Shown here: positions 3,291 to 49,884 of the stretch, piece after piece
Position numbering within the stretch: position 1 is the stretch's first letter
How the letters are laid out: each line of letters opens with the position of its first letter
Source of the DNA: Diphasiastrum complanatum
Taxonomy: Eukaryota; Streptophyta; Lycopodiopsida; Lycopodiales; Lycopodiaceae
Direction: 5' to 3'
Assembly: GCA_029204225.1 (NCBI GenBank)
Contig: CM055107.1
Span: forward strand, 10,546,868 to 10,610,867
Length of the DNA stretch: 64,000 nt
Program-made: the position numbers and the translations under genes
The notes under the pieces: model-generated
Seen by the model: the letters and a program-made list of their open reading frames with translations, nothing else
What the model was told of the DNA's origin: nothing
Database searches by the model: none

Positions 3291-3299
3291 CAAAGAGAG

Positions 3300-3670
3300 T
3301 GGATCCAACCCAACCAAACCTAGATCGAATGGATCTAGCCCCCAAGCTATGGAATGCTTGCCATGTCTCAATAGTGGAAGGAGTAAGAGCGCACTCCAGC
3401 AACATGTCGTCCACCACTCCAAAAAAGGAGGCCTATGGGTATACTTATACCTTCCAAGGCCCTCCCTAGACTGTGTATACTAAGACACCTCACTAGGACA
3501 CATCATCCAATTACCGGTGAGTCACTGCCAGTTCCATATAAATCCACCATCATGGGTTTTAGGCCTCCAACCATCAATTATAGCTTTTTGCCATGAGAGA
3601 CCCAACCTCCTCATAATCATAATTAACTTACGAGTTGAGGTAGGCCTTCTAACCCCCTTATGGGATATAA
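3300..3670. repeat. Dispersed repeat, copy 1
   Basis: Shares long blocks with 27181-27560: caacccaaccaaacctagat, tctagcccccaagctat, gagtcactgccagttc and accatcat(g/a)ggtttta(g/t)gcctcca, in the same order and orientation. No coding sense; likely a non-coding part of a retroelement. Confidence 0.75.
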
Positions 3671-3859
3671 ATCCAGAGTCAGAGCCACGATATTATTTCA
3701 TTATTCAAGTTTTGACCTTAGAACTTAAAGTTGGGAAAGTCCGCATCCTAAGGCTCTCAAAGAATCATCATCTTATGTATGATAATTATGTGAGAATTAT
3801 GCAAAAATAGCTTGATGTAGGCCAAAATTATGTACATAAGGTCATCCCACAAACGTGGA

Positions 3860-7190: not shown

Positions 7191-7394
7191 CTACACAGGC
7201 AGCTGCACCGTTGATTGCTCAGAAGATACAGGTATAAAAGGTGACGAAGAAACTTCATCTCCTTCCATTGGCTCTACCACTTGTGGATATGTTGCTGATT
7301 TAACATGCTGTATGTCCCATCCTCTCTGAGGGGGAACTTCAAAAGAAGGTTTGACTTTAAGATATCTGCGGTGGTAGGGGAAGAGGAGCTGCAT
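7191..7394 (-). pseudogene. Out-of-frame conserved tail of BAR gene
   Basis: An open frame overlaps the end of exon 9 in another phase and reads through KPSFEVPPQRGWDIQHVKSA, then EGDEVSSSPFIPVS, to a stop. Family C-termini have an SFSIP-like motif followed later by a VSSPPLTPISL-like motif at this distance. One base too many near 7365-7370, or an unrecognised splice, would account for the break. As shown, the annotated protein lacks roughly 55 residues. Confidence 0.55.
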
Positions 7395-8334: not shown

Positions 8335-11300
8335 CTGCAACAGAAAACCCAAAACTATCAGTTCTGACTTCTAACATATAGAACTGGCTTAGGGCATTGC
8401 AAGCTGTTGGATAGCTTGTTTGGAAAAGATTCATAATTTCAACAGCCAGATCTAGCTGCAACAGTTAAGGGCATAACAAAATTTTCTACTCTGTTATAGA
8501 AAACTTTGTGAAAAGTAACTGAAGTGAAATGAAATATTCCTCAGCCTTTCACAGAAAACTTAAACAAGTATAGCTCAAGGAAGCCAGGCTACAGAAACGT
8601 CTGAGCAAACTGACAACTAGATGCTTTGCCCAAAAATGAAAAATAATGTGAAAAGCCATTTGAGGAATGCCTATCATAGCAGTAGGTTGAGTAGCTTATC
8701 AGTTTCACTAGATAGCCTTCAGTTGTACGGTAGGCATAAATATCCTGGTACTTAGAAAATTCACATGTACAAATAAATCAGGAGGTTCAGAAAGGCTTAC
8801 GTAATTTTTGCATGCATTTGTGTACATGAGAGGGGCAAAGAGAGAACCTGCTCCAGGCTACTCGAGCTTATTGAGTCATCATGTTCATTTGAAGTTGCCA
8901 TCACATTGCCAGTTGGATCCCTCCCATCATCCGAATCGTTATTATGGTTGTTGAAATAGATTCGGTGATCTATCTTGCTTTCTTGTGCCACTAAATCGAT
9001 GTAAGGTTCAATTTTACTCACAGATGCAAAAGCCTTCCGAAATAGATGCACCTGCACAACATATCCTATGTCAGACATCAATGCCGAATACATATGTTTT
9101 GGCTAAGGAGTTCTCTAAGGCAAAGTTAGGTGCTCAAGCGCTTGACTTCCTGGTGCATAATCTACTTCTACAGGCTAATTTGAAAGCCAATAATTTTCTA
9201 GATTTTTTGATAGTTAGTTACTGCGAAAATTTATGGGTTCCACTCTCTCGAGTACCAATTCATGCCCTTAAGCATTCAAGGAAAATGAGTTAGTTCAACC
9301 ATGGGCATAAATGTAAATGTGACACAGACATACCACACATTGATTCTGTTCTTTATCCATATTGAAAGAACAGCGATGAAGAATTAGGAAATCTTCACCT
9401 GATAACTTGTGGAAGTTGACAGATAGTCATGCCTTCAAAAGTAGCTGAAGTTTCAATGTAATTGTCAACCACAAAAACATAAGGAGTTTCTTTTTCAAAA
9501 TTAGGAAGAGAAAGCTTGCATAACAAACAATCAATTTGTGTGACGATGTACAGTTGACTAGCGAACTTATAAATTTGTATAAGATTGGCACATGCCATGA
9601 ACAAGTACTGAAGAACCCATTGAAGGTTCTTTAACAGAAATGCCTTCACCTTATTTGCAATGGTAGGTTAAGACTGAAAAATGGATAGAGAAACTATGTT
9701 CAGCTGTCATTCAAAGAGATGGGCTAGCCTTGAAGACTGATCTGTGCATTCACTCAAAGAAACAGGCCAGAAAAAGATTCATGCAAATAATAAACCTAAT
9801 TCCATTGCAAATGAGTGGTCAAACGATCAGTCACTTCTTAAGTTGCACCTCTCAAAGGAACTGTGTTCCTAAATTTGACCAAAGTTCCCCAGCTCCTTCC
9901 CATTCATTAAAGTTACAAGAACAAAGACGTACTGGAAACAAGCTACAAAGGTTATCTGAGTGACCGCATGAAAAGTATAGCTGGCAACAACAGGAAGATT
10001 GCTTCAACAATCTTTTCTGTGTGAAATATTTTTTAAGTAACATCAAAAGGGAATAGTCTCAAGTGCTTGTGCCAGTAGTTATTGATGTTTCGATTAAACG
10101 TGTGAAACTTTTATTGCTATGTAGCTAAAACATGCTCACTGAACAAATGCTGGCAACCAAGTCTATCAACTAGCAATAGTAATATCACAGTTGCTACATT
10201 AACATACTTTGGCTTATAAGTTTTCAAATTTGTCACTTGAAAGTTGAGCCGCTTCATTTGTGTCTATTCTGTTCAGACTTCATAGCCAATTCTTGTTGAA
10301 CCAGATCATATATGCTAATGTGATCACTGTATGAAGTTTGAACTTGCGACAGAAAAAATATTTTTCAAGCGGGAGCTCCTTAGACAGTTCACACATTCTT
10401 AAACTTTGACATTAGCAAAGGAATAAACTCCATATACAAAGAAAATGGATCTACGTTGATTGCAGGTTCGGCATTGAATTTTATCAGCAATCATCAACAG
10501 AAACGAACCAGCAAGTAAACCACGAATAACATGAAAACGTAGTTCCCATCTATATGTAATAGGTTCATTTCAAACAGTGCATTTGTTTCTAATCTATTGA
10601 AAGTGAAAAATAAAAAACCACAAGAATTGATTGAATGTTCCACGCCTACAGAATGTGTTTTGCTTTGTATGTACAGAATAAATGTGGAACCAAAAAACCC
10701 TAGAACAGGTATCAATAAAGAAAATGATCTACCTGAAGCTGTTAAGTAATGATAAGATCAGTCAACTATTTGGAAAGTAGACATATAGCTCTAATTGGCT
10801 TGCTAGGATTCTAACCTGTGCAGTATGATGCCGTGACACCTTTGTAATGATGTTGTGGAATCGTCCCTGTTCCAGGGAGAGCACACGACAATCCACAGAC
10901 ATTGCCAGTTCATCAAACTGATGCTTTGCTGTCTGTAATTGCTGTTCAGCAAAAATTTCACTCTTTCGATTCTTAGGTCTCCCCTTCGTAAGTTGCAAAC
11001 GAAGATGATCATAAACACCCCTGCAAACATTCTAGTCAACGACAGTACTAACTACATGTATCCAGTTGCTTCCTAAAGCCAAATACAAGCATGGGCTTAC
11101 CAAAATGGATCAAACACACTTTGCTTAGGAAATTTTTTTGGACTGACCTTTTTTCATCATACTTGAGCTTTGTTTCCTGCAAAATCATAATGAAAGTTCA
11201 ATAAAACATAGGAAAGGCGGTATTTCAGAAAAAAAGCCACAATGTTGGCATACTAAATAGCCAAGATCCAAAATAGCATGCTTCCTTGCCGGAAGCATAA

Positions 11301-14300
11301 ATTCTAGCCATTCTAATCAAGGATGTTTCAAAATGTTCCATTCTAAACTCTGTAGACCCACCCCTAACATTCAAACCAACTTTCTCTTATTTTAACTTAA
11401 GTCAGTCTAGATTCAGCTGGTACTACTTCATTGCATGACTAAATAGTAGAGCAAGAAGCATGGATACAACTTTTAGTACAGTTTAGACTCTGAACAGAAA
11501 CTGAGCATGTCCATAACTTGAAAGATGTGCAGCCACATGGAGGTTGGTATGTATATGACAAAAAAAAACCAGCCAATAACAGAGAATGGGACATGTGACC
11601 AGTGGCATGGAAGTCTGCCATTATAAGTAGAAAATCATAGAAGCTAAACCAACTTGTACTGCTCCTCACAATAACATACCAAAAGCAATAGTTTCATAGC
11701 ATTGGAACATCGTTCCGTACACGTCCCATATCTACTTCAATTTATTTTAAGTTCGTAACAAGCTGCATGTGTCCATGATCATCCACGCTAATGGATTGTG
11801 GGCTTCTCACCTACCCTTGGGCCTCGTGCAAACCCAGTTTATCATGGGTTTGTTTTTGGCAGAAAGCTAATCACCACTTCAAATTTTCAAATAATGAAGC
11901 CTTCATCTTTGTTCATGCAGCAAGAAATGCCTCCACACACTTCATCAAAAGGGTTGAGAGATTCGATTGTATGGAAAACATGGAGTTCCAAACAGTCCTA
12001 TGGTGTGCAGTTCAGAGCTTCTTCAGCTAATGGGAGACAATCAACATGAGGTACTTCTTTGTGACTTACAGTTTGTTTTCAATGACTCTGCTTTCAATAA
12101 TGTGCATCATGAAATTAAAAATTTAGATGTTTTGTTAACTGAATTTAATGATTTTTTTTTATAATCTACCTAACAATCAACATGAGGTACTTCTTTGTGA
12201 CTTACAGTTTGCTTTCAATAACTCTGTTTTCAATAATGTGCATCATGAAATTAAAAATTTAAATGTTTTGTTAACTGAATTTAATGATTTTTTTTTATAA
12301 TCTACCTAACAATTTGCCGCCCAATAGAGAAGTAGATCATGCAATTAACCTAGTAACCAGTACAACACTTACAGCCAAGCCACCTTATCGGGGTTATAAA
12401 TAACTAAACAGTTAATTGAATATCTAAATAAGGGTGAAATTAAACCAAGTAGTTCACCTTGAGTAGCACCCCCATCCTGTTAGTTAAAAAGAAAGGGTGG
12501 GGGTCTATGTGCTTATGTGTAGACTACATAGCTTTAAACAAAGTCACAATTAAGAATAAGTACCTTATGCCTCGGGTAGACGAGGTATTTGATCAACTCG
12601 ATGGGGTTAGATATTTCAATGAAATATATTTGAGGTTGGGATATCATCAAGTCCACATCAAAGTGGAAGATGTCCCAAAAACAGCGTTCAGAACTCGTCA
12701 CGGTCATTATGAGTTTAAGTTGATGTCGTTTGGGCTCACCGATGCTCCGACGACGTTTATGACCATGATGAACAATGTTCTTTAGAGATATTTAAGATGA
12801 TGATACTTTAGTTTATAGTAAAACTAAAAAAGAGCATCTGGCTCACCTCAGAAAGGTGTTCCGTTTGCTCATAAAGCATAAATTTGCAAAGAAACCTAAA
12901 TGCAAATTCTTTACCAGAGAAATAGCGTATTTGGGTCATATAATCTCAAAAGATGGGATTAAGATGGATCCTAATAAGGTCAAGGCCATATTCAATTCGC
13001 CAAAACCGACTAGTATATCAGACGTTCAGCTTTTTCTTGGTCTTTCGAGATATTACCGATGATTTGTCAAGGATTAAGCTCAGATAGCAGTTCCCATAAC
13101 AAATCTTCTTAAGGGGAAGGGAAAGGAGTTCATTTGGGGGCCAAAGCAACAAGAGAGTTTTGACGCTCTCAAAACAGCTTTGGTTACGACACCAATACTC
13201 AAAGTCGTAGACCCAAGTCAGCCTTTTGTGGTCAAAACATGTGCTAGTGACTTTGCGGTATGTGCGGTGTTGAACCAAAATGGAGGGCGAATGGCGTTCG
13301 AAAGTAAAAAGCTCGAGCCAGCCCAAACTAGATACAACGCTTATGAAAAAGAACTTTTTCCATAATTCACGCCCTTAAGACTGGAGACACTATTTGTACG
13401 GGCTAAATTTGAGATTCTGATTGACCATGAAAGCCTTTGGGAAAAGCTCGATGGGCTAAATTAATGCAAGAATTTGACTTGTCTGTCAGATATAAGACGA
13501 GTAGAATTCAACACAGTGGCATATGCTCTTAGAAGAATGCCAATGGTAAATGAATTAAGTTTTACCCAGAAAGTAATGAGTTACTCAAGTCCTTGAGAGG
13601 GAAATGTAAAAATGATGTGTATTTCTCCATAGACTAGGAAACAATCCAAGACAAAGATGTACAGACTTCTACACCAATTCCTAGGGCTAGGAAAGATTCA
13701 TATGACAACTTTCGTTGAGGATGGAGAATACGCCATATTGCGTTGAGGATTCTGAGTCTATAGGACCCAAGCATAACATCATGGTTGAGGGATCTAGTTC
13801 TCAAGGATTTGAATGGAAACAATATTCCATTCAGGATGAGTATCTAGTTTACAGAAACAAAATATGTGTTCCCAACTCTGCTACACACTACAATCTAACC
13901 TCTTCCAAGCTACTGACTGACACTGCAATTCTGATAATAAAAAACAAACAGTAGACAATGTTTAACAGCATACAACATCTGAAAAACAACGGAACTTGTA
14001 ACTATTGTAATCAAGCTTTACATCATTCACAGATTGCACACGTCGGGCAGAATGCGGAAATCATCTATTATCATCAATAAGTTTTACATCATAACTTTGG
14101 AGCGCTATCCACAAGAGAGTCTCTCTCTCTCAAGAATAGCGAGTGTCGCTTACTAGCTCACACTCCTCTTTAATCTCATCAAGTTTCTCTCTCTCGTTGA
14201 TCCTATATATAAAGGAACGGAGAGATGATTAATTTAATCAGCAGTAGTCAAAAGAAGTGTTTTACGTTAATCCTAACTACTTCTTGTTGCCCGTTGTTGT

Positions 14301-17300
14301 CGTCCGTGCTTCGTGTTGCTTGCTCTGGTGCTTCGCTGTCCATTCACGTACTGGGAGAGTGAAGATGCGGTGCTATCGCAACCACATGTTGACCGCAGCT
14401 AAAGCCATTGCGGTTCCTTCGGCGTCGTGAACTTTTGCTGCGTGAGCGTGAAGTCTTCATTGAAAGTTACCACAACTGTATACTGACCGCAACTGACGCT
14501 TGTGCGGTGCCTGGGCGGTCCATTTCCTTCATGTGTTGAAACCGCACGTAGACCATATGGGTTGACCTGCGGTGTCCCGGCGGTGCCTCGGTGGTATGTC
14601 CACTTCGCATAGTGACCGCAGATAGACCGAATACGAAACTCCTACGGAGTCTGAGCGGTGCCTCGACGGTGTCTTGCGGTGCGTTAGCGGAGCCTTGGCA
14701 GTATCCTGACGGTATTGCCAATGTAGAAAAATCAACATCTACTCCATGAAAGAGATGCAAACTCAACAAGAACATGAGCAAACATCAAACATAAGATATG
14801 ATGCTGTCGTACAAAAACAGTAAGCTACTGTATTTCACATGTGTGGATCCGAAAATAGCATAAAATAAGCATTCTACACACAAGCTTGCAAGATATCACA
14901 AATATAGTGCACCAATGGATAGATGAACCCAAGAGAACTCATGTATAAGCATGAAGTAAGATAAGAGAGAGAGAATGTGTCTCTTCCCATGAGTGTACAA
15001 CTATATATAGCAGATCCATGACTCATTAATGAGTTTGGTTTCCCTCCATAACAAAAACCCTAGCATTAATGTGGACTAGATTCAAATGTCTCCACATTCA
15101 AATTGAATCTTCTAAAACTTGTGTACTACACTTTCCCACACTTTCAAAAAGTGTTTATTGAAATGCTTTTAGACTAATATAACTTTGAAAAGTCAAACTC
15201 TAAGTCTAATAAGAAAATTGGCCTCAATTGCCAAATATACAAATATGACCAAAATAGCAAAACTAGTTGAAATTTCTCACACTCCCTCTTCAACTAGTTT
15301 TAGCATAGACTTTGAGAACACTCCAAGTGAAGTCCTATGCTTCATGAACAAGTCCTTTCCCAATGCTTTGGTAAAGACACAAGACTTTGCATCTACCATA
15401 TGAAATCTTTCTAGAATAAAATTAGCATACTTCTCTTGACAAATGAAAGTAGATTGAGAAGATCTAATCACTTCTATTTCTAAAATGTAACGCAAATGAC
15501 CAAGATCATGCACCTCAAACTCCTTGTTGAGAGCACTCTTGATATCCTCCACATCTTGGTTGTCTCCACACTCAAGATGATATCATCCACATAGATTAGC
15601 AAAATGGTAACATCATTTCCAGCAAACCTATAATAAAGTGAATGATCATACTCACTCATAACAAAGCCTTGAGAGAGTAAAAAAGTGTTAAGCTTAGCAT
15701 ACGAGCTCCTTGGTGCTTGCTTAAGGCCATATAAACTCTTTTGTAAAAGAAACACATGATTTGGCTTTGTAGGTGAAATGTAGCTCTCGGGTTGCTCCAT
15801 GTACACTTCCTCCTCAAAATCACCATTCAAAAAAGCATTTGTGATATCCAATTGCCATAGATCCCATCCACAAAGAGTAGCAAGAGAGATGATGACCCGA
15901 ATGCTTAGGGTGAAAAGGTTTCATCATAGTCAATACCATGTTCTTGAGCATATCCTTTTGCCACCAACCTTGCCTTATGCTTATTGATAGATCCATCTTG
16001 GTTTGTCTTCACCTTGAAGATCCATTTACATCCAATAGCTTTCTTGTCCTTAGGTAACTCCACCAATCTCCATGTTTCATTCTTCATAAAAGCTTGATAC
16101 TCAAGATCCATTGCTTGGATCCACTCCTCTTTGTTCCTTGCTTCATTTACACAAGTAGGTTCATCAAAAGAGGAAAGCAAAGTGTGTACCTCCAACAACT
16201 TGCTTACCTTTCTCATCATATGTGAGCCTCAAAGGCATATGTTTTTTCCTTGATGTTTTCCTTGGCTTTGGACTTGATGAAGGTTCTTCATCATCACAAT
16301 CTAAAGTAGGATCCTTTACATCATCATCAAGAATGTTAGATCCATCCACACCATTATCACTTGAAGACACCTTTGGAATATTCTCCTCATAAAAAAAGAC
16401 ATTTCTACCAATAATCACCTTATTAATAGTAAGAATGTAAACCTTGTAGGCTTTACTCACCTCACTATATCCAACAAATATACCTTTCCTTGAAGATGGA
16501 TCCTCCTTTGTTCTATCATCAAGAGTTATATTGACATAGCACGTACATCCAAAAGTTTTAAGAAAGACACTCGGCCTCCTCTTGAATAGCATCTCAAAAG
16601 GTGTCCTTCCATCCAATATAGCACTCGGCCATCTATTGCATAGAAAGTTAGCACACAACAAAGCTTGATCCCAAAATGGTTTTGGAAGATTAGCACCTAA
16701 CCTCATGGCTTTGGCACTTTCACATAAAGTTCTATTCTTTCTCTCGGCCACTCCATTTTGTTGTGGGTGTCCTTGGAGTTGTGTACTCCCTCTCGATCCC
16801 ATGCTCATCAAAAAAAGCCTTGAACTTGGTAGATATGTACTCTCCACCATTGTCACTCCTCAAGCACTTGATCTTTGTCGAAAATTGGTTCTCCCTTGCA
16901 TTCTTGAACTTCACAAAGACATCATACACTTCATCTTTGTTCTTTAGTAGAAAATCTACTAAAATCATTAATGAAAGTTACATACATCTTAGCTCCACTA
17001 TTGCTAATTGTAGTAATTCCATGAATATCCAAATGTACAAGGCTTTGTAGATCTAGATGTAGATCTAGTATAAGGTAGTCTATGTGACTTTGACAAAGCA
17101 CAAGACTCACAAACATGATTGATGCTAATTAAGGATCTTGGAAGATCAATCACAATTTGCTTCTTAGCTATTACCTCCAATGACTTGAAGTTGAGGTGCC
17201 CCATCCTTTTATGCCAAACTTCTTGAATAAGTATTTGCTCACTTGCCACAAATCCAACTTAGTTAGCAATAACACAAGAAACTAGTTTGAACAACTTCTC

Positions 17301-23300: not shown

Positions 23301-25000
23301 GTATAGGACATCATCGAGTATCCGAGTATCCTTTCTTTGCTATTGGTGTCAGCAACAGTACTCTTGTTCCATTGACTTGATGTCTGGAACCATCTCCTAA
23401 AATTATATATCTGGAGGAGTCTGTTTCCTCAAAATCAGCAATTATATGCTTTGTTGTCACGAAATGTGACGTAGCTCCTGAATCAAGAATTACTTCTTGT
23501 ATATCAGCTTGTGATGTGGCACACACATTAGCGCACAAATAAGCAGCTGGATTTTTGTTGACTCTTTCTTCAGCCAACTCTGAGGATTCTGGTTCCTCTA
23601 CGTAGGATGAGTTGTTGGAGTTCTCCCTTCTGCTTTGTGCTTTCTTGTTTCTTGGATTCTGATAGCAATCCACGGCAGCATGACCCATCTTGTGACAATG
23701 TATGCACTCTATCTTGGGATTTAGCCAACATGTGTCAACTGTGTGACCATCACGTCTGCATCTCATGCAAGTCTTGTTCTCACCACCTTGTTGTTTGTGC
23801 TTGCTCCTTCCTTTCCATCTGCCTTCCTGATCTCCCTCTTTCTGCTGACTCCGTTCTCGTCTCTGATCTGACTCCCTCTTAGGTTGAAACTTGTTCTTCT
23901 GTTCTTTGTTGCTGTAGAGAGCTTGATCTGACTCGTTCTTGTCATCATAGTGCTCACTAGCCTCTACTTCTTCTTTGATCTCAATTATAGCCTTCTCAAG
24001 AGTCATGTCAAGATCTTTGGCTAGTAGCATCCGGGTTGTCTGGAACGATCTTGGTAGAGCACGCAGGAGGTATGTGAGCTGCTTCTCTTGTGAAACAGCA
24101 TGTTTTGTTCCAGCATTGTGTAAGGAGAGGAACAGATTCTTCATCTTCCTGACGAAGGTTGTGAGTCCTTGCAATCCCATTGTAGATAGGTAAGCTGGTC
24201 TTCCAAGTGCATGATCTGATTACGTGACTAGGTTTCAAACCTTGCTTGCAGTGCATTTCACATATCTCTTGCATAATGATAGGAGCGAGGTCAAGAGTGA
24301 TGCTATCTTCTATTGAAGATGATATGACAGCTACTGCTCTCTCATTTTTCTCCTTCCATTCACGAAGTTCTTTGCTTGTGCTGGCAGTCCCGTCTACCCG
24401 GGGCCATAAACCTTCTCCTCTCAAGATGAGGGAAGTCTTCACTTTCCAGGCCAAATAATTTGACCCGTCTGCCTCAAGAACTGTGCAAATCTTCAATTGG
24501 ATGCTGCTGATTGAAGCCATAGTTTTGAATAACCAGGCTCTGATACCACTGAAGGAATCTTTTTGCAGCGCTTTGGCGTTTATGCTTTGATACCACTGAT
24601 GGAAAGCTTTGAAGTGCACTGCTCTGATTCCTGATGTAAAGATTAGATAGAGTCGATATTGGAGTTGCAGCTACTGCTACATACTACAACCTAACCTCTT
24701 CCAAGCCACAAACTGACACTGCAGTTCTGATATTAAATAACAAACAATAGACAATGTTTAACATCATACAACATCTGAAAAACAGCGGAACTTGTAACTA
24801 CTGTAAGCAAGCATCACGTCATTCACAGATTGCACACATCGGGCAGAATGCGGAAATCATCTATTATCATCAATAAGTTTTACATCAAAACTTTGGAGCG
24901 CTATCTGGATCCCAAACAGTGCGTTACTGCAAGAGTGTCTCTCTCTCTCACGAATAGCAAGGGTCGCTTACTAGCTCACACTCCTATTTCATCTCATCAA

Positions 25001-25085
<85 letters not shown>

Positions 25086-40000: not shown

Positions 40001-43000
40001 CTCTCGAAGATCCTTGATCTTCGTCAAGTGGTTTGTAAGCAAATCACTTGCATCTTCAAGATAGAAAGTTGATTTCGAAGATATACCACTTTTGTCGCAT
40101 TCTTTACTTGAAACATCTTTGCAAGAGTCTCCCAAGCACTTTTGGAAGTCTTGCATGATCTAATATGTGGAAGGATAGATCTCTTCATTGATAATGCAAT
40201 GACGGAATGTGCTTGTGCATCTCGTCGATCCCACTTCTTTTGCTCATCGGAAGACACCTCCGTAGATGATGAAATAGTTGTTCTAGATGGTGTAATAGGT
40301 GCCAAGGTAGGTGGCCTCTCATCGTCACCATTAACTACTTCCCACAAACCTTTAGCAATTAGAAGGTTCTTTATCATGTAGCACCACAAGGAATAGTTTG
40401 TGCCATCCAGCCAATAGACTCCGATTCTTTAGTCATAACAGAAAAATCAGCTTGTAGTAGATAGGAAATAGACTTTCCAAGACAAAATCTACTCAAAGGG
40501 CAGCAACCTCAAAGCTGAAATTATGAGCACGATAGATTGCAATACTCCACATGCAATTTGCTCAACAAGTAATGAAATAGGTGGCTGATTTTTACACAAA
40601 AAAACAGAATGCTTACAAATAGGTAGACTTCAAATGAAGCCAAAACCAAAACCAGAAATTTGTGGCTGAAAAGAGTGCACACTATGTGCATATAGAGTTG
40701 ATGGTAGCGCCCTACTCCAAGCTCACCAACAGGGAAATTTCAGCAAGAAATGTGTCCAAAACACATGTATCTTCATTTAAGAAGTAAATCTGAAATTTTC
40801 AGCATCACATGCAATTGGTTTGAGCATGGGCACCCTACTACTAGCTCTCAAATAGGTGAAGGTGCCCTGTAATTTCCTGCAAAAAAGCTATAAGAAGATG
40901 AACAGATTCTTCTCCTGCAAAAATCAGCAGCTTGATGATTTTCTGCAACCAAAAGGGGAAGAAGATAGCTTCCTATTGGGCGCCCTCCTGCAAGCGATAT
41001 GATCACCTAAAGGCTCTGATACCATGTAGGAAATAGAAGCCTAAGGATCCAGGATCTTAACTATTCCATCACACAAAGCATTCTCAAAAGAAAGAGAGAG
41101 ATGGCTAGAACATAAGATCCAAAGAGAGAGGGAGAGATTGTTTGAAGATGTGCAAGCAGATTATTCAAGGAGCTGAAGCTGCACCATGTTGTTAGGAAGG
41201 GACTGTGAGTTGCTTTTGACATTGACATCTTCTGGTGACTTCTCGAATCTCGAAGGAAGAGGCGTGTTGGTTTATTGAATCAGGATCGAAAAATATGACA
41301 CCTAGGCGAGAGTGGTTGTCTAGTTTTCATTAACTAGATGATGGAACATATTTGACATTGGGAGATAGGGAGTTGAAAAAGTACAGATTCAACTACCTTC
41401 AAGGAAGATTGTAGACATTGCAGACGTGCTTTATGTATCAAGAATTAGAAAGAACTTACTCTCAGTATTGGCTAAGCAACATATGGTTGTGCAGTTTGAT
41501 GAAAAGTGGTGTCTCATCAAAAGGAAAGACAATGAAGTAGTAGCTGAGGGCATACTTGCAAGAAGGTTGTACAAACTTCAGGCTCAGTCATTGCGGAAAG
41601 GAAGAACCGGCCTATTGTGGAAACTGCGAGGAGTATGCTCAAAAGTAAGAATCTTCCAAATATGTTTTGGGGTGAAGCAGTTAAGACGACGATTTTCTTT
41701 TGAATCGAAGTCCTACAAAGGTTGTAGAGAATCGAACTCCAGAGGAAGCTTACATTGGTCAGAAACCTGAAGTGAGTCATTTGAGGGGTTTTTGGAAGTA
41801 TTGCATATGCTCACATACTTAAGGATTCGAGGAGCAAATTGGATTCAAAGGCGACCAAGTGTTTACTTCTTGGATATGATAATCAAGAGTAGGGATACAG
41901 GTTGCATGACTTGGAGGATAAAAAATTCATCATAAGCAAGGATGTGATCTTTGATGAGGATGGATCTCATAAAGATACAGAGTTATCTTATGATTGGAAG
42001 CAAGATGGAGGAATTCCTATCATGTGTGACAAGTCATTACAGGAGCCTGAATCAACACGTGTGCCGCCTACACCAATCCAAGTATCTAGAGTGACCATTG
42101 ATGAGAAAGGAAAAAGGAAGGAGAGATAAAGTACATGGGATACTTATTCACCTCCTACTTCACCAGGTAGGAAGCATCCTACTTCAGATACTGGAAGATT
42201 GCCTAGATGGTACTATGAAACTATCAAGGATAGTGTCATTTTGGAACAGGGAGACTCCAGTACAAAGGAAATTAGATTTGCCAGACTTGAAAAACATCAT
42301 GAAGATCAGGATGGACAGGAGGATCATCATGTGGATAAGGATGCACACTTTGCATATATGGCCACAATGTTGGAAACCAAGGAGGCTGAAAAAGAGGATA
42401 TGTGGAGGAAAGCTATGGATGAGGAATACAACTCAATCATGAAGAACAAGACTTGGAGACTTGTTCAATTGCTTACAGGTGAAAAGGCCATTGGATTCAA
42501 GTGGTTCTATAGAACTAAGTATAAATCAGATGGTTCTATAGATAAACATAAGGCAAGGTTGGTTGCAAAAGGGTATGCTCAATAGGAAGGGATTGACTAT
42601 GAAGAACTTATAGTCAGGTTGCTATGAGGATGGTTTTGTTACTGGCAGCTCAGTTTGGATGGGATATTCAACAAATGGATGTGAAGAGTGCATCCCTAAA
42701 TGGATTTCTAGAAGAGGAAGTCTACATGGAGCAGCCAGAGGGATACATAGTAGCAGGACATGAAGACAAGGTTTGCAAGTTGGACAAAGCATTATATAGA
42801 CTTAAGCAAGCACCCAGAGCATGGTACACAAGGATTGACACATACTTTGAGGAGCTTGGTTTTCAAAGGAGTATTTCGAAGCCTACACATTATGTTTTGA
42901 TCAAGGGCGATCATATTGTGATTGTAGTGATGTACGTGGATGACCTTGTTATCACAGGTTCGGATCATCGTGTGATCCAGAATATCAAGAAAGATCTCAA

Positions 43001-46000
43001 AAGTTCGACATGAAAGATCCTGGTTCACTACAATACTTCCTTGAGATTGAGGTATGGAGAGTAGCACACCGACTATTTATTTCTCACTCTAAGTATGGTC
43101 ATGAACTTTTTGAGAAGCTCAATATGTTAGTGCAAGCCTATTTCTACACCATATGATAGTGGATGTAAGCTTACTAAGGCTCAGGATGATCAGGATGTAG
43201 ATGAGACGTTATATAGAAAGCTTGTTGGAAGCTTAATCTATCTAACTACTACGAGACCAAATATTGCTTATGTTGTTAGTATGACTAGACAGTTTATGGC
43301 TAAGCCTAAGCAGGTCCACTGGAGAGCTGCTAAGCAAGTACTTGGATATATCCAGGGTACATTGAGGTTTGGTATTCTCTATGGGAGACAAAATGTTTTG
43401 CAATTACAGGATATGTGGATGCTGATTGGGATGGAGATGCAGAAGACTAACGATCTACTACAAGTTATGTTATTAGTCTTGGTTCCGGTGCTATATCTTG
43501 GAGTTCAAAGAAACAACATACTATTGCATTATCATCTACAGAGGTAGAGTATCGGGCTACTATGAGTGCGGCAAGTGAAGCAATATGGTTACGAAGGATT
43601 CTACAAGATCTTCATATGGACATGATACACCTACAATACTTCAGTGCGAATATCAAAGTTGTATTAAAATGGCAACGAATCCAGTTTTTCACAGCAGCAC
43701 AAAGCACATCGAAGTACAACAACAGTTCATCAGAGAGAAGAGAAGATTCAAAGTGATGACATGGAGCTTATATATTGCCCTACAAAAGAGCAATTTGAGG
43801 ATATCTTTACCAAAGGACTTGGCAAAGAAAAGTTTCAGAAGTTTAGAGAACTTCTAGGAGTGATAGATAACAAAGTAAACATTAAGGGGGAGTGTTAAAA
43901 ATTAATATTTATTTGCACCCCTAATGTTGGTTTGGCCATGCCTGAAAGCTATTTTAAGGGCTATTTTCTATTTTTTATAATTCCTAAAGTCAATTTAGTT
44001 GTTCATGCATGTAGGTGGGCACACTAGTTCTAGGATAGAACTTGGTTTTAATACTTTGCCCTTAGCTTTTGCGTTATGCTTTTGGCTTTTCACAAGGAGT
44101 AGAGAAAGTATTTAAGTAGGTTGGCGCCCCACCACAACAAATCCATTCCATTATATAGAGCTTTGCTCATTCCTCTATAATCAAAGTTCTCTTAATCTCT
44201 TATTCTGGTCTTGGTGTGTGTGAGTGCTATTATGATTGATGAACTCCTTTGAGGAGTTTATGCTATTTCTTCTTGGCTTGAGATTTTTGTTCTGATTCAT
44301 CTTTTATTAGTTGGTTATTGATTGAAAACTTATATCGGTACTTTCATGAACACAAACTATATGACTACCAAGTAGAGCTCCTAAATAACCAAAGGAAATA
44401 TTGAAGACTTATATGGGTGGAAAACTAAGAAAAATAGATGGTGGAAATGTGGGAGGTACATGTAGGCAAGGCGATACTTTAGTTCTAAAGGGCTAGTCGA
44501 GGACTTGACATGCCTATGTACGAATCATCTACCCGAGGGTTAGCCCACCATAAGCTACATTGACGACAGGTAGCCACAACTACTACTTGGCCCAAGCTAG
44601 GTCAAATGTGTCACTAGCTAAGCTTCTCTGATGAGTTTCAAGAGATCCAAGTTGGGGATGACAATCATAGATCTAGTCGTTAGAGCAAAGTTAGCAGGTA
44701 CACGACGAGAAGCTAATTAACAACTTGTCAAGCAAGTCAAATTGACAATTGCATCATGCAAGACTTGGAGTGATCATTTTCAATTGCCATAATACTATAA
44801 TGCTAAGTTAAGGACATGCGTAATTGATTACTTGAGGACCAAAATGAAAGGTAGAGAATATAAAAAGCAATCTAAGCTAAAGAGAAGATTCATTCTCACC
44901 ACCAATTAGTTGTAGTTCACAAGTTTGGAGGGCATAGTCCTCAAATAAGGAATCGTACCTTTGTTCTAGAGAGGAAGCCATGATCTCCACAAAGAGACTT
45001 CTTTTAGGAGAAAACTTCGCATTTAAGTATTTTGTTGAGAACCTGATGGAATCCTCAAGCAGAAGACTAACTTCTACTCTTTAAGAATTCATAGCAATGA
45101 TTTGCTAACTAGAAAATCTTCATTTACATTGTTGATTGGAGCATATCATTCATTGAATCGCTTTTTCCCCCACCTTTAAGAGATGAGTGCATAATTGATG
45201 CTCCTCATAACAAAGTTAATTTTTCATTCATGTCATTATCTTTCTATATCACTAAAATAATCAAAATTCTTTTCCTGTTATGGTTTATTTCTATCAAATG
45301 TCAATAAGATCACATATTGTAACATGCTACAAGAATCATCATCAAATTAGTTAATAGCCATTTATCACTAACCTTGATTTGGTCAATAGAATCAGCGGCT
45401 TGTACTCAATAGGATTCAACAATTTGACAAGCTCAAATGGAGGGCATAGGAAGATCAATTAGTTCATAACTTCATAGGAACCAAATAGACCACTAAGAAT
45501 CCTAAGGTCAATAGATCGAATATATCAATGATAGTAATTGTATCAAATGTATTATGCTATTAGTCCAAAAGAATGTAATTGACACCATCAAAGGATTGAT
45601 TAAGCATCTCTTCGAATGACTCTATTTTCAAACTTAACTTCTCAATAAGTTCTTATCCAAATAATATAAGAGATGGCTTCAATCATAGTTGTTTTTATTA
45701 CATTCTTTCTAATAAAAAACATGCCTTGTGAAAGTAATCAAATCATTGTACCTCTAGTCAACTCATAGACATTATGTAGCATGTTTTCATGAAACACAGT
45801 GCTGCAAATGTGCGCCTATCTAATGCAGAAGTGCGCTACTCAATGCATTTAGTTTATTGGATCTAGATACACCAAAACAAATCACAGACAATGGAACAAT
45901 TAATCAAGCAATAATGGATGCAACGCCGAAATCACAGTTGGAAGAACAGAATAGCCTTTGTATTTTGTTTCTCAGAGTAAGTTGGTAGTGCAACAACGCG

Positions 46001-49000
46001 ACATGGCGGCCTGATGCTCCTCTTACAATCTCGCTTATCTTCTATATATCATCCTCACCTATTCTATTGATTCCTGGTCTATACTTATGTCCCGCTAGAT
46101 GGGATTAAAAGATAGTTCAACTAATCGTTACAAGAGAGAATTACGTTAAACAATAAGTTAACTACATTCTCTTGTAACGTTCCTTTACGGCTGAGCGTGA
46201 CAGTTTCAAGCTTCACGTCCGACAGGCTAAGGCCCGATAATTTGAGTCGCCCGACGGCTCGTTTGCCCCAAAGTCAGTCTCAGCACTTGCATTGGAATTC
46301 GATAGTTCGGTTTCGATGCTGCGCCGATTTGTCGGCCGTTCAGGGAATGCTGGAGAAAAGTTGCATGAGTTCACCATCTCTAACACATAGAATACAATTT
46401 GTTTGCAAAATAAAATCACCTTTAACTTTCTCTATGTTATGGACATCATGTCTAGATTGGTACCCTTTGTTGATTCATCTTGTGCATATGGGTGCTCATT
46501 TTATGCATGTGTTGGCCAGGCACCCTTTTTATTCATGTAGAGGCTTGGAGGCCTTTTTATCATTTACATTTTATTCTAGAACTATTACTAATTGATTAGT
46601 TGAGGAGGTGACATACAAGAGGTGCACTTTTCTCTCTCTACATTTCCATTGTGGGACTTTATCTCCTCTAGTATTTAGAGGCTTCCATTTTAGGGCCTTT
46701 GTTGGGTATTATAGGGACTAGAGACGCTCAATGTTTAATTTTTCACTTTAGGAGAAATCATTGCTATTGCTTGTAGGGCATTAGATTTTGATTACATGGC
46801 ATCATTTGCCTTTCTACATGGGAGATTGCTATTGATTCTCATTCATGGTCTTTTATGCTTGATTGTTTTCATAACTTGGTATCAAAACACTTCTTGATCA
46901 ATGGGAAGACGTCGACTTGTAATTTTTGTTTGTCTTTCCTCTCTCTTTGGCCAATTCCCTCTCTCAACACCTAAATCGACATTTTGCCATTTTTCGTATG
47001 TGATCAAAATTGAATTATGTCAATCGCATTGGTTTCCTAGTCATCGGACACCTCTATAGTTTTCAAAAGACTTTGATTTTATACTTTAAAGAAGGTTATT
47101 CATTTTGTAATTTTTGGCGACAAAAGTTGGAAATAAACACATCACTGGAAGCGAAAGACCATGCCACACCTACAGAAGGAAGCAACACATTGAAGATCTT
47201 GAAGGTGAAATTTTGGTCAAAATAGGAAAGTATTATGTTTTATGCAAACAAATTTTTCTTTGATGTTGAGTGGATCTTTACATTCTTTGCTAACCAACAA
47301 GTGCAAAAAACTTTATGACTCATCAATCAAATGTCTCTATCTGAAGATATCCTACTTCAAAGTTCTTGCATCAAAGAAAAGTTTGCATCACAAAGGACAG
47401 CCATCTGTAGTCATTGGTGCCAAGTTTTAAAGTGATTTTGGACTTTGTACCACCTACATTGCTCACTGATTTTTACAACAGTAGTGCACAATCTATATTG
47501 GCATCTCCAACACTTACCTTTTTGAGGAATTCTCACACTTTTATTGCTCTATTTGCATGCCAATATTTACAACATGTGAATAGTCTTTAATGCCAAGTAG
47601 CGCTAGGATTTCTATACTAATTTTGCTTCATATATGCTTGTTGATTGTCAGCATACATTTATCATCTTTAGGTAGTCCTTTTCAGCCTATTAGTTTTTGT
47701 GTGGACCTAAGATCTACTTGGGGACAACAAGAGTCCAAATTCTCACTAGCTTCGTATTGCATACTTTTGCCCTAATTGTGCTTTTAATCCACTTATTGAA
47801 ATTTCCACCTTTTCAATATTCTCACTTGTTTCTCTCACTTTTTGTCACTTTATTGTTTATTTCGCTTGTTTTTTATTTTGTTCACAACATTTTTGTGCAT
47901 GTCAAAAAAGACAAGTTGACGTTTCCCACTTGCATTTTCTTATGGCATATTCTAACTCATGTAAAGGACCTGTCTAATATGGGTCCTTTGGGGACACTGA
48001 ATTGGAAAACTGGTTGAATAGATTAGAGTCCTATTTTAAGATCTATCCGACATCATGCTTTCAAACTTACATTGATTTCTTCATTCTAAATCTTGGAGAG
48101 AGGCATATAGACGTGATGCCACCCCTTCCGATAGGGATACTTTTCTCGAGCATGTTATTCATGCTATGTATCAAGTAGATGATTCACAAGACGTTCCCAA
48201 TGTGGTACATGACTAGGATATATCTCATCCACCACTTAATACTCCAGGTTCATGTAGATGAGGTCACAAATGTATGTCATGCTTAGAAGATATTAAAAAT
48301 GAGATTTTTGTACATAATCTAGATTATGTAGAGTTTCTAGTTGCAGCACAGGTTCAAGCTAGTACATAAGATGTTCCATTTTTGGCAAGGGTTACATATC
48401 CAGATGAAGAGGATCTTCAAGATTCTTTAAGTTTGTTCTAAAGCTCAAAATCAAGTCTACTTGGATACATCATTTCTTCAGCCTTCATCTCCGAGGTGCT
48501 TAGCTCTCCAAGCTCCTCAAGAAACCAACTAGCTTGATTCTTGACTCTTCTTCCATCCATAGGCAATCTTCACAAAAAACCAAATCACCCACTTCCAATT
48601 TACTATAGGTACGATGCTTGCATGCATGACTCTTTGTGCCTGAGCCTTGAAAAGGTTTAGCCTCACAACCTCAAGGATGTCTTGCATTTGAGTTTAAAAC
48701 TCGACGCCACTCAGTACCTTCCAAGGGAGGCTTACAATAATTGGACACGTCAACCAATAACCATAAATCAACTCGAATGGACTCATAACAATGGACACAT
48801 GTTTATTGTCATTATACACAAACTCAACTAAGGGCAGAGATACTTTGCCCAATCAATTTGTACCTCACTAACGTATGTTTTAAGCATGTCCTCTAAAACC
48901 TGGTTAACCTTCTCTATTTGCCCACCTATTTTGGGTGCTCACTACTTCTCTTCCGCAACGCAATTCCTAGACAAGAAAACATTGTGAACCAAAAAATTCC

Positions 49001-49884
49001 CATGAACTTAGGGTCTCTATGTTACGTCCATGTCCGGTTCAGAGGATTCGCAATAATCCTTGACATGGGTATTCGGCACTCCAACGTAGGTTTATTGGTT
49101 ATGCCTCACCTTTTGGACAAGGCCAGAAATATAATTAATAACCTTGTGAGCTCCTAGGCACTCCAATTAGGACATGTGGAGTAATGCATGGTGATTGACC
49201 ACGTTTTATGCATGTTGAGGAGATAAAAAACAATTGGATGAGACTTGAGATCCTGCAAGGAATATTCCTAGGCATCAGGGGTCTATATTTCTCGGCCTCC
49301 TCCACTTCCAAACTTCGATTTCCAGTTACCATCATACTGCCAACCTTACACATCCTAAAATCGACAAAAATTGTGCCACATTATCTAGTTAAGTGTTTTG
49401 TCTACATATTTCCCACATCTACTCATGCCATCAAATCTCACTGCTAGATTTTACAATAAAAAATTCAGTACTCTAAAACGCAACAGTTAGAGAAGGTTAT
49501 CTCAAGCCTTCAGAATTCTATAATATTAGCATCCTTGTAAGTCGTTTCTTAAATGACCAAGTTGCAACTAAGCATTCGGCTCTGGGACAATTGGATTGCT
49601 ATTTGGATGGGACTGCCATAGGCTTCTAACTACGAGAGTCTCATGCATTGGGAAATGAAATTTTCATTAACAAGCTACGTGAGCGGTATGTACTATGCAC
49701 ATCCAGCCAAAAAAACGATAATCAACAGGTGATAAAAGGCGAAGTCAAGTGAAAGTCTTTTGCAAACCTCCATCCTTTTGGCAACCTCTTCAAGATCCTC
49801 TGTCGGTTCCTCATAGCTAGACGCTGTCTTATCCTTAGCACGGTGTAGTGCAAATTTCCTTAATTTGTTCCAGGAGGATTTCAT
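7357..49884 (-). CDS. BAR-domain, proline-rich protein (At2g33490-like), 9 exons
   Basis: Spliced gene: join of 49768-49884, 32630-32702, 30311-30385, 30057-30118, 29877-29945, 11148-11176, 10816-11020, 8848-9051 and 7357-8334 on the minus strand, 1812 bp, 603 residues plus stop. Residues 1-245 match the helical BAR/IMD-like region of the plant family annotated as hydroxyproline-rich glycoprotein family (Arabidopsis At2g33490); the start [15 protein letters not shown] is its conserved N-terminus. From residue 279 the protein is Ser/Pro-rich, with SGPLTPMG near 485 and [10 protein letters not shown] near 549, both family hallmarks. BAR folds bind and curve membranes; the exact role of this family is not established here. 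All introns are GT-AG and reading frame is kept at every junction. Introns 1 (17,065 bp) and 5 (18,700 bp) are full of retrotransposons. The annotated stop lies early: the conserved tail continues in another frame at 7191-7394. Exon calls rest on family alignment from memory and splice signals, not transcripts. Confidence 0.85.
8848..9051 (-). CDS. BAR gene exon 8
   Basis: 204 bp in phase 0 coding [20 protein letters not shown] and an acidic, Asn/Asp/Ser-rich stretch to SSSLEQ. The family reads CFFKKALSSLEEVDPHV here. Acceptor gttgtgcag|GTG, donor CAG|GTTCTC. Confidence 0.9.
9052..10815 (-). other. BAR intron 7
   Basis: 1,764 bp between exons 7 and 8. No transposon protein or RNA gene recognised; AT-rich with short frames only. 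Confidence 0.7.
10816..11020 (-). CDS. BAR gene exon 7
   Basis: 205 bp coding [20 protein letters not shown] through VSRHHTAQ. The KGR-K and RHHxAQ motifs are family hallmarks at the end of the BAR region. Acceptor tttgcag|G, donor CACAG|GTTAGA. Confidence 0.9.
11148..11176 (-). CDS. BAR gene exon 6 (29-bp small exon)
   Basis: 29 bp coding ETKLKYDEK plus two bases of an Arg codon, equivalent to family EMKRQCDEKR. Acceptor attttgcag|GAA, donor AAAAG|GTCAGT. It sits at the far end of the 18.7-kb intron, 127 bp before exon 7. Confidence 0.85.
12030..13878 (+). mobile_element. Ty3/Gypsy left part: reverse transcriptase and RNase H (decayed)
   Basis: Plus strand. Before the ORF a frame reads [10 protein letters not shown], the RT approach motif. 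12459-12785 reads [20 protein letters not shown], a decayed D-x-x-x-GYHQ as [10 protein letters not shown], and [15 protein letters not shown]. The YxDD catalytic site is damaged by stops. 12856-13062 reads [16 protein letters not shown], and 13180-13365 the RNase H start [15 protein letters not shown] with YEKELF. The last recognisable part, KICVPN, stops where the GC-rich Copia LTR begins; the integrase resumes at about 25.69 kb. Confidence 0.8.
12036..12307 (+). repeat. 136-bp tandem duplication
   Basis: Two adjacent copies begin at tcaacatgaggtacttcttt (12041 and 12177) and each ends in ttttttttataatctaccta. I count only a few substitutions between them. It lies directly before the Gypsy reverse transcriptase, in the region that would link protease to RT. 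Confidence 0.9.
13879..14721 (-). repeat. Copia E 3' LTR (left copy)
   Basis: About 0.84 kb matching 24675-25673 in order and orientation: tgctaca start, ctaacctcttccaag, cacatcgggcagaatgcgg-type block, tatataaa, and a GC-rich part full of gcggtgcc. It stops at the first base of Copia A's LTR, so its outer end is cut or interrupted. Confidence 0.75.
14722..15281 (-). repeat. Copia A 3' LTR
   Basis: Minus-strand LTR starting TGTGAGAAATTTC after the polypurine tract GAAGAGGGAG (15282-15292) and ending TTTTTCTACA. The TGT...ACA ends are inverted repeats. No 5' LTR partner was found near 18.6-19.0 kb. Confidence 0.65.
15277..18587 (-). pseudogene. Copia A gag-pol remnant
   Basis: Minus strand, gag to RT. 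Gag starts near 18500 ([24 protein letters not shown]). A CCHC knuckle [14 protein letters not shown] is at about 17.76 kb. Protease [12 protein letters not shown] is at about 17.6 kb, with its DSG intact. Then comes the H...H...C...C pre-integrase part, the integrase core with RSDNGGEY and [10 protein letters not shown], and RT with [26 protein letters not shown] and an intact IYVDD. Many frameshifts and stops. RNase H is missing: the RT end joins almost directly to the polypurine tract. Confidence 0.85.
18590..19017 (-). other. Copia A leader, truncated
   Basis: Non-coding sequence between the A gag and the abrupt start of Copia B's LTR at 19018. No LTR similar to 14722-15281 is found, so A's 5' LTR is lost or was cut off. 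Confidence 0.5.
19018..19496 (+). repeat. Copia B 5' LTR
   Basis: 479 bp, TGTTGGAATATAAATGG...TTCTATTTCCTACA, followed by the primer-binding site. It is the sister of the LTR at 36060-36523. Confidence 0.9.
19497..19509 (+). promoter_or_regulatory. Copia B primer-binding site
   Basis: tggtatcagagcc, complementary to the 3' end of plant initiator tRNA-Met, directly after the LTR. Confidence 0.85.
19922..22390 (+). pseudogene. Copia B gag-protease-integrase, truncated
   Basis: Plus strand. Gag starts at 19922 ([19 protein letters not shown]) with an early TGA at 20036 and a frameshift near 20430. Knuckle [14 protein letters not shown] is intact at about 20.7 kb. Protease [12 protein letters not shown] is at about 20.97 kb. 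The integrase has [15 protein letters not shown] and GVVERKNRT, with a TAA before it. In the zinc-binding part HVWKGC replaces the HVCEGC seen in sister C, so a metal ligand is lost. Sequence changes abruptly at about 22390 into Copia E on the other strand; RT, RNase H and 3' LTR are absent. Confidence 0.85.
22385..24530 (-). pseudogene. Copia E gag-protease-integrase, truncated
   Basis: Minus strand. Gag starts near 24520 ([20 protein letters not shown]). It carries two knuckles, [14 protein letters not shown] and [14 protein letters not shown]. Protease [17 protein letters not shown] is at about 23.48 kb. The integrase has [25 protein letters not shown] and [12 protein letters not shown], and ends at [12 protein letters not shown] where it meets Copia B head to head. 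Several frameshifts. Its missing RT half would lie where A and B now are. A tRNA-Met-type site is at 24543-24555, next to a second, altered copy at 24586-24597. Confidence 0.85.
24675..25673 (-). repeat. Copia E 5' LTR (right copy)
   Basis: About 1 kb, partner of 13879-14721. It contains a (CT)39 tract, a TATA-like tatataaaag, and a GC-rich end with repeated gcggtgcc. Gypsy sequence resumes just after it. Exact ends are uncertain, since about 80 bp separate the LTR from the nearest primer site. Confidence 0.7.
25004..25081. repeat. (CT)n microsatellite inside Copia E LTR
   Basis: About 39 CT units without interruption. The same place in the left LTR (14184-14195) has only five or six units. 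Confidence 0.95.
25690..26600 (+). mobile_element. Ty3/Gypsy right part: integrase (decayed)
   Basis: Plus strand. [20 protein letters not shown] is the Gypsy integrase zinc-binding end. Then follow, with frame breaks, [12 protein letters not shown] and ISDGDSK of the catalytic core (the DDE region is damaged), and at about 26.4-26.5 kb the post-core tail. It continues the RT/RNase H part at 12.0-13.9 kb, from which it is separated by 11.8 kb of Copia DNA. Confidence 0.75.
27181..27560. repeat. Dispersed repeat, copy 2 (inside BAR intron 5)
   Basis: Second copy of the repeat at 3300-3670, same orientation, diverged by substitutions and indels. It lies to the right of the Gypsy remnant in intron 5. 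Confidence 0.75.
27600..29860. other. Part of intron 5, no gene seen
   Basis: AT-rich. Two palindromic motifs with the core aaacgcgttt occur at 28698-28707 and 29560-29569. No reverse transcriptase or transposase sense was found. Confidence 0.45.
29877..29945 (-). CDS. BAR gene exon 5
   Basis: 69 bp in phase 0 coding [20 protein letters not shown] and VAE, matching family HIFQTITIPSESLLNEL. The acceptor is gatgcag|GCT; a nearer-upstream AG at 29959 would break the frame. Donor GAG|GTATCA opens the 18.7-kb intron 5. Confidence 0.85.
30057..30118 (-). CDS. BAR gene exon 4
   Basis: 62 bp coding the end of a Gly codon then [20 protein letters not shown]. It matches the family signature RVLLMLGKVQFELQKLVDSY. 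Acceptor ccttcag|GT, donor TAT|GTCTGT. The downstream intron is only 111 bp. Confidence 0.85.
30311..30385 (-). CDS. BAR gene exon 3
   Basis: 75 bp, phase 1 in and out, coding [20 protein letters not shown] then DENA. It corresponds to the family segment FSESLREMG...DDEESG. Acceptor tttacag|GT, donor GCTG|GTAAGC. Confidence 0.88.
30386..32629 (-). other. BAR intron 2, 2.2 kb
   Basis: Contains degenerate short repeats around 31430-31570 with variants of tagtcaataca, and an LTR-like tatatatagg stretch near 31.0 kb. A 116-codon minus frame (31596-31946) and an 85-codon plus frame (31997-32254) resemble nothing I know. Confidence 0.5.
32630..32702 (-). CDS. BAR gene exon 2
   Basis: 73 bp coding [19 protein letters not shown] and the next five residues, plus one base of a Gly codon. 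Acceptor tattgcag|AAA, donor TATG|GTGAG. It aligns to the family helix that reads LDDMRDCYD-like and joins exon 1 in phase 0. Confidence 0.85.
34463..34800 (-). pseudogene. Unknown retroelement-like ORF
   Basis: A minus frame reads [20 protein letters not shown] within a Gln/His-rich context and ends WESEDA. The ELMRMAP part recalls the spacer before the protease in some plant Gypsy polyproteins, but this is weak. It stays open upstream of the first ATG. Confidence 0.25.
35674..36059 (+). repeat. Copia D 5' LTR, first part
   Basis: tgttagaaattgatgtttat through ggtcttggtgtgtgtga. It matches 43893-44224 with many substitutions and indels. Copia C's LTR begins at the next base, so D's LTR is interrupted here. 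Confidence 0.85.
36060..36523 (-). repeat. Copia C 3' LTR
   Basis: 464 bp, on the plus strand tgtaggaaatag...acattccaaca. Reverse complement matches Copia B's LTR closely. The polypurine tract TAAGGAGGG adjoins at 36524-36532. Confidence 0.92.
36642..40436 (-). pseudogene. Copia C gag-pol with deleted reverse transcriptase
   Basis: Minus strand. Gag starts at 40436 and shares the sequence of Copia B, with a small deletion near the start. Knuckle [14 protein letters not shown], protease [12 protein letters not shown], integrase zinc-binding HVCEGC and core VHSDVCGP are present but frameshifted. A 388-codon ORF (37374-38540) runs from [16 protein letters not shown] through integrase to the RT entry [14 protein letters not shown] and then jumps to [15 protein letters not shown], which is normally the end of RT. 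The RT body including YVDD is gone. 36642-37368 holds a second, diverged integrase-RT spacer. It cannot be autonomous. Confidence 0.88.
41012..41024 (-). promoter_or_regulatory. Copia C primer-binding site
   Basis: ggctctgatacca on the plus strand, i.e. TGGTATCAGAGCC on the element strand, matching initiator tRNA-Met and directly abutting the 5' LTR. Confidence 0.85.
41025..41110 (-). repeat. Copia C 5' LTR, truncated
   Basis: 86 bp matching 36060-36145 with three differences seen. It stops after gatggctagaa, where Copia D sequence takes over. The remaining 380 bp or so of this LTR are deleted. Confidence 0.88.
41111..43892 (+). pseudogene. Copia D pol remnant
   Basis: Plus strand. Gag is lost. 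A protease scrap ([15 protein letters not shown] altered to ESG) is at about 41.25 kb. At 41580 the frame jumps from the protease tail to [16 protein letters not shown], so the pre-integrase part and core are deleted. 42199-43013 carries RT with [10 protein letters not shown]-type start, [35 protein letters not shown] and an intact MYVDD; a TAG and a frameshift break it. RNase H scraps ([14 protein letters not shown], in shifted frame) are at 43.5-43.8 kb. The polypurine tract ttaagggggag precedes the 3' LTR. Confidence 0.85.
43893..44349 (+). repeat. Copia D 3' LTR
   Basis: Starts tgttaaaaattaatatttat after the polypurine tract; the first 330 bp match 35674-36059. The right end is set by the ca at gtactttcatgaaca and is approximate. 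Confidence 0.7.
44350..47900. other. Part of intron 1, no gene seen
   Basis: Mostly AT-rich. A more GC-rich, LTR-like block lies at about 45.8-46.36 kb, with an inverted repeat at 46126-46179. Frames up to 132 codons here match nothing I recognise. Confidence 0.45.
46126..46179. repeat. Inverted repeat in LTR-like block
   Basis: Arms cgttacaagagagaat and attctcttgtaacg flank about 25 bp. It may be part of a solo LTR or a small hairpin transposon. Confidence 0.6.
47990..48440 (+). pseudogene. Ty3/Gypsy gag scrap
   Basis: A plus frame at 47990-48060 reads [18 protein letters not shown], the common W-hydrophobic-E-YF motif of plant Gypsy gag. It is followed by broken frames. No protease follows; minus-strand Gypsy integrase sequence begins instead. 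Confidence 0.5.
48500..48935 (-). pseudogene. Ty3/Gypsy integrase scrap
   Basis: Minus strand, reading [20 protein letters not shown], then [15 protein letters not shown] and [15 protein letters not shown], typical of the integrase core end. Short and broken. It is opposite in strand to the adjacent gag scrap, so the two are not one simple element. Confidence 0.7.
49768..49884 (-). CDS. BAR gene exon 1
   Basis: Codes residues 1-39, starting [15 protein letters not shown] and ending VAKRME, in phase 0. The donor is GAG|GTTTGC. The start was chosen because family members begin with this peptide. An in-frame upstream ATG at 49950 follows a plausible acceptor (ctgtttcag), which would place an intron in the 5' UTR. 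The exon lies 17 kb from exon 2. Confidence 0.85.

Follow-up and report, generated by a model that had tools for sequence, protein, structure and literature searches.

A nine-exon BAR-type gene model spanning 42.5 kb across two retrotransposon-filled introns in Diphasiastrum complanatum

Introns enlarged by transposons are a familiar feature of plants, and the stretching of genes that results is ordinary in large plant genomes. In Chloranthus spicatus, 876 of 2,184 orthologs are reported as long (>20 kb), with LTRs common in the long introns, and long LTR-filled introns are described for Chloranthus and the magnoliids (PMC8626473). Exceptionally long introns are reported for some genes of Magnolia biondii (PMC7917104), and in grapevine transposable elements account for ~80% of the expanded intron space (PMC3058033). 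In Arabidopsis, heterochromatic transposons are reported inside the introns of active genes, which are transcribed through them, and the state of these elements bears on whether transcription is proper (PMC4417168). The gene described here represents a new instance of this phenomenon. It is the same in kind as the genes of Chloranthus spicatus, Magnolia biondii and grapevine, with many-kb, LTR-rich introns set between constant exons; the gene itself is not described in the text consulted. It likewise shares with the Arabidopsis genes the presence of retrotransposons within introns, which may be silenced here as well.

The window, meaning the whole 64,000-nucleotide stretch of DNA that was analyzed, corresponds to C16:10546868-10610867 in a 1.74-Gb genome, and that genome was used to test the gene model. 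On the minus strand, nine exons running from 49884 to 7357 join in frame into 1,812 nt, that is, 603 codons plus a stop. Exon 1 (49768..49884, 117 nt), which carries the start codon, is followed beyond intron 1 (32703..49767) by exons 2 (32630..32702, 73 nt), 3 (30311..30385, 75 nt), 4 (30057..30118, 62 nt) and 5 (29877..29945, 69 nt), and beyond intron 5 (11177..29876) by exons 6 (11148..11176, 29 nt), 7 (10816..11020, 205 nt), 8 (8848..9051, 204 nt) and 9 (7357..8334, 978 nt including the stop codon). All eight introns have GT-AG ends, and their lengths are 17,065, 2,244, 192, 111, 18,700, 127, 1,764 and 513 bp, so that introns 1 and 5 together occupy 84% of the 42.5-kb gene and 56% of the window. 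The initial annotation had proposed nine in-frame exons of about 1.8 kb, starting at 49884, ending at 7357 and joined across the two large introns at 49768/32702 and 29877/11176; this structure was recovered, with all six coordinates exact.

Since assemblies fail in transposon-rich stretches, an erroneous join of unrelated pieces is one alternative reading of such a gene. A second contig of 86.8 kb (C591), presumably the other haplotype, is collinear with window positions 5725-64000 at 99.4-99.9% identity in five blocks and extends past the window. Throughout the gene its order agrees with that of the window, with all nine exons and their splice sites kept, and the same exon order is found in the two paralogs described below; although all of these sequences belong to one assembly, a misjoin is barely credible. 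Between the two contigs, the coding sequence differs at 1 position in 1,812 nt, a synonymous change, and the introns at 80 of 40,696 aligned positions; this exon-intron contrast taken alone is not significant, with one change seen against ~3.6 expected (calculated by hand). Intron 2 is longer by 1,277 bp in C591 (C591 26776-28052, locus L005; opposite window ~32306), which indicates that intron length still varies.

Of 49 candidates in a protein search of the whole genome, 35 were retained as matches. These fall in the window gene, in C591, in a paralog on C2 together with a further copy of it and in a paralog on C17, apart from one weak, unassigned match (C2:24138448, E 0.36, two stops). The further copy of the C2 paralog is split between C21:35311067-35342482 and C4677, and it may be an allele, a duplicate or an assembly leftover. 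Both the C2 gene, spanning ~59 kb, and the C17 gene, spanning ~39 kb, consist of nine exons with the same phases as in the window gene and without internal stops, the start of C17 exon 9 having been picked by frame and acceptor. In each of the three genes, the lengths of exons 1 to 7 are 117, 73, 75, 62, 69, 29 and 205 nt, and exon 8 measures 195 nt in C2 and 207 nt in C17. The donor of C17 exon 6 (L029 1317-1318) is GC, not GT. Over aligned positions, the C2 protein (605 aa) is 64% identical to that of the window gene and the C17 protein (659 aa) is 42% identical.

Selection was estimated as dN/dS against the C2 paralog with 2000 bootstraps; in the comparison with C17, synonymous sites are near saturation. 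Exons 1-8 (274 codons) are under purifying selection, with a dN/dS of 0.33 (95% 0.22-0.47) and none of the 2000 bootstraps at or above 1. Exon 9 (311 codons) evolves fast, its dN/dS being 0.75, with 66 of 2000 bootstraps reaching at least 1. When the blocks set apart by the large introns are taken singly, every point estimate lies below 1: 0.38 for exon 1 (54 bootstraps of 2000 at least 1), 0.41 for exons 2-5 (26 of 2000) and 0.26 for exons 6-8 (0 of 2000). The exon structure is beyond chance, because the exon order, the phases and the lengths of exons 1-7 recur in two paralogs and the dN/dS of 0.33 points the same way. The host exons that flank the large introns are thus conserved in order, phase and frame, as is apparent from the second contig, the paralogs and dN/dS.

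Regarding the encoded protein, residues 28-233 match positions 21-219 of the Pfam BAR_3 profile (PF16746) with E 2e-7 and a score of 31.4 bits, slightly below the curated cut-off of 31.7. The paralogs each pass one of the BAR profiles: the C2 protein scores 43.5 with BAR_3, above the cut-off, and 27.6 with BAR, below the cut-off of 28.5, and the C17 protein scores 33.2 with BAR (PF03114), above 28.5, and 24.2 with BAR_3, below the cut-off. The assignment as a BAR-type protein made in the initial annotation is supported by the profile match of the window protein. The Pfam scan found no other domain in the window protein at E <= 0.001, and a sequence comparison of its first 234 residues with solved structures gave no match. 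The protein may belong near the plant "uncharacterized protein At2g33490-like" family, which we take to be similar in its N-terminal MKSSWxKLR, its BAR-like region and its proline- and serine-rich tail. The At2g33490 locus is mentioned in three papers; a literature search by way of presumed relatives found none. From the domain, a membrane-shaping role may be envisaged.

The BAR domain is interrupted by intron 5. Exons 2-5 alone match BAR profile positions 70-134 weakly (E 0.11), and exons 6-8 alone match positions 144-232 (E 0.007), through the first 113 residues that follow the intron. The two halves correspond to successive parts of the profile, which supports their joining across 18.7 kb. 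This bears directly on the possibility that the gene has been broken by transposons into two or three transcription units (exon 1, exons 2-5, exons 6-9) whose products are no longer joined. In favour of that reading are the great length of the introns, the LTRs lying in them on both strands, and a short frame of 63 aa that results from read-on past exon 1. Against it, frame and splice sites are kept in each block, with dN/dS below 1 as a point estimate, exons 6-9 begin in the middle of the BAR domain and hold only half of it, and the same blocks are kept in C2 and C17 across introns of up to 25.1 and 15.5 kb, respectively. A gene broken in this manner is highly unlikely.

At its 3' end, the gene shows a departure from paralog C17. 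The reading frame of the window gene stops at 7359-7357, after PLPLPPQIS. Just beyond, 7191..7355 on the minus strand holds 54 codons and a stop in a frame other than that of exon 9, homologous to the C-terminal tail of C17; read from 7355 to 7191, it gives VKPSFEVPPQRGW...YPQVVEP...SSSPF... up to a stop. C17 carries the matching tail in frame (YPQIIEP...SSSP), and in C2 the PQRGW part is in frame and is then followed by a stop. The window gene and the C2 gene have thus lost the tail through different lesions. C591 is identical to the window over 360 nt at this region, so that both contigs share the out-of-frame tail. The description of the protein as full, made in the initial annotation, consequently applies to the BAR region and does not extend to the end, where a conserved tail lies out of frame past the stop.

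Taken with the recent transposon load, the lost tail could mark an early stage of decay, i.e., a pseudogene that still looks intact. The presence of the frame difference in both contigs, the dN/dS of 0.75 in exon 9 and the loss of the C2 tail by another route would all fit such a reading, and yet the 1,812 nt contain no internal stop or frame break in either contig, and exons 1-8 retain a dN/dS of 0.33. The latter value is a mean for the whole period after the paralog split and is compatible with a very recent loss of function; even so, decay is quite unlikely. Taking together the second contig, the two paralogs of like structure, the selection on the exons and the BAR match that spans the 18.7-kb intron, the claim of one host gene is well supported, and the locus is very probably a single functional plant gene of 42.5 kb, encoding a protein in which a BAR domain is followed by a long tail rich in proline and serine.

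The content of the large introns was examined by a Pfam scan of 28 proteins chosen from the listed frames, those of at least 95 aa totalling 79. Sixteen of the scanned frames lie in introns 1 and 5, and 13 of them carry a retrotransposon domain (E <= 0.01), those at 34466-34804, 43131-43544 and 46125-46595 being without one at this threshold; of the six frames scanned outside the gene and away from the neighbouring acyltransferase gene, none carries one. The description of the two introns as retrotransposon-filled is supported by these domains and by the LTR pairs; the further statement that they hold most of the transposons of the window fits the scanned sample and holds for that sample only. 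The acyltransferase gene itself lies at window 58783-61264 on the plus strand, with a PF01553 domain in two of its four scanned frames. A frame at 63255-63689 (minus strand) resembles a Copia RNase H by eye, without a Pfam match.

In intron 5, Gypsy reverse transcriptase and RNase H frames occupy 12453..13362 (plus strand), and a Gypsy integrase H2C2 frame at 25586..25888 (plus strand) is perhaps the rest of the same element. Between them lies Copia A (13878..25603, minus strand), with LTRs at 13878-14704 and 24674-25603 that differ by K 0.108 over 827 sites. Within Copia A are found the remains of Copia C (15280..18614, minus strand), with gag, integrase SH3 and reverse transcriptase frames and outer limits taken from the listed frames, and Copia B (19018..22392, plus strand), inverted relative to Copia D of intron 1. 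C591 has ~166 extra bases inside Copia B (window ~19788-19798). In intron 1, Copia E (35673..44224, plus strand) has LTR-like ends at 35673-36059 and 43892-44224, with K 0.123 over 329 sites, and Copia D (36059..41110, minus strand) lies between them, its LTR in the window being ~97% identical to the second LTR in C591. C591 has ~424 extra bases at the end of Copia D (window 41110). Judged from order, strand and LTR pairs, the Gypsy element was apparently split by Copia A, the Copia C remains and Copia B would be later insertions inside Copia A, and Copia E was apparently split by Copia D.

The synonymous divergence between the window gene and C2 (dS 0.42) exceeds the LTR divergence of E (0.123), A (0.108) and D (~3%), which places the insertion of these three elements after the separation of the two genes. 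Ordered by divergence, the sequence of events runs from the paralog split through A and E to D, and finally to the split of the two contigs (~0.2%). The initial annotation had further held that several LTR promoters and polyadenylation signals must be bypassed for correct splicing. The LTR pairs are indeed present; as to the signals, intron 1 contains 22 sense-strand AATAAA motifs, where base composition predicts 14.4, and intron 5 contains 6, where 15.8 are predicted, so that over introns 1 and 5 together no excess of this motif is found relative to base composition.

Comparison with the paralogs shows that the large introns are not the same ones from gene to gene. In the window gene, C2 and C17, respectively, intron 1 measures 17.1, 6.0 and 10.0 kb, intron 2 measures 2.2, 22.5 and 15.5 kb, intron 5 measures 18.7, 25.1 and 0.34 kb, and intron 8 measures 0.5, 0.9 and 7.4 kb. 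At least one intron above 15 kb is present in all three genes of the small family found in this genome. The sequence comparison took in 25,109 of the 25,113 bp of C2 intron 5; introns 1-2 were represented in C2 by search loci and one 800-base piece and in C17 by 20 kb. At E 1e-5, C2 intron 5 gives no match to window intron 1, and its matches to window intron 5 are confined to a Gypsy region (11941-13181), at ~72% identity. They come from two copies within C2 intron 5, an inverted Gypsy pair of 2,517 nt with 98.8% identity between its members (L047-L048 joined positions 2549-5065 and 16465-18981), so that no shared insertion is seen there. Near the pair lie frames that by eye resemble a hAT-type transposase. 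The LTR-like ends of Copia E have a relative in C17 intron 1, at 75.5% over 188 nt. A shared ancestral growth of intron 5 was considered and rejected as far as compared, the intron being 336 bp long in C17 and holding different transposons in C2. Intron enlargement has been repeated, with contents that differ between genes where compared.

The arrangement of the Copia elements raises one further possibility. Reverse-complementary repeats are present in the introns on both sides of exons 2-5: Copia B and D stand in opposite orientation and are complementary at 94.3% over 2,620 nt in the longest, gapped piece, with ungapped pieces at 95-97% and shorter matches beside them, and both elements lie in blocks shared with C591. 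Exons 2-5 would lie in the loop of a possible giant hairpin, and pairing of the two elements over more than 2.6 kb of the pre-mRNA could promote a circular RNA of exons 2-5 beside the mRNA. It is an unlikely product, and one that, if formed at all, would join 29877 back to 32702 and comprise exons 2-5, whose 279 nt are a multiple of three (93 codons). According to a review, inverted pairs are said to favour circular RNA, complementary flanks are given for 46 of 6,074 exonic circular RNAs in rice and 1 of 5,152 in Arabidopsis, and LINE1-like pairs occur at 17.3% of circular RNA flanking regions in maize (PMC11276256). In the present gene, however, 3.4 kb separates the nearest upstream arm from exon 2 and 7.5 kb separates exon 5 from the nearest downstream arm, and the Copia family is abundant, with 1,385 first-look candidates, of which the 40 scored stand at 98-100%. 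Given this abundance, and an inverted pair also inside the single intron 5 of C2, inverted pairs are expected by chance; on these grounds, circular RNA was rejected as the main explanation. If it were nevertheless formed, an old host gene would have gained through transposon insertion a second product, along with a means of reducing its linear mRNA.

The explanation that we favour for the locus remains a single gene, in which an ancestral nine-exon structure is kept while Copia and Gypsy elements landed in introns 1 and 5, some of them apparently nested, with A, E and the youngest insertion, D, arriving after the split from the nearest paralog. One 42.5-kb pre-mRNA is most likely transcribed, from which ordinary GT-AG splicing would remove the introns. 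We propose that the transposons are tolerated because of their distance from the splice sites and because, within the gene, they are probably kept silent.

The understanding of intron growth is unchanged by this gene, against which the annotation of genes in large plant genomes can be tested. The locus provides a clean and checkable example in which exon phase and protein sequence outlast repeated retrotransposon insertion: within one genome, the nine exons are retained in three paralogs, with the length of one intron varying between 0.34 and 25.1 kb.
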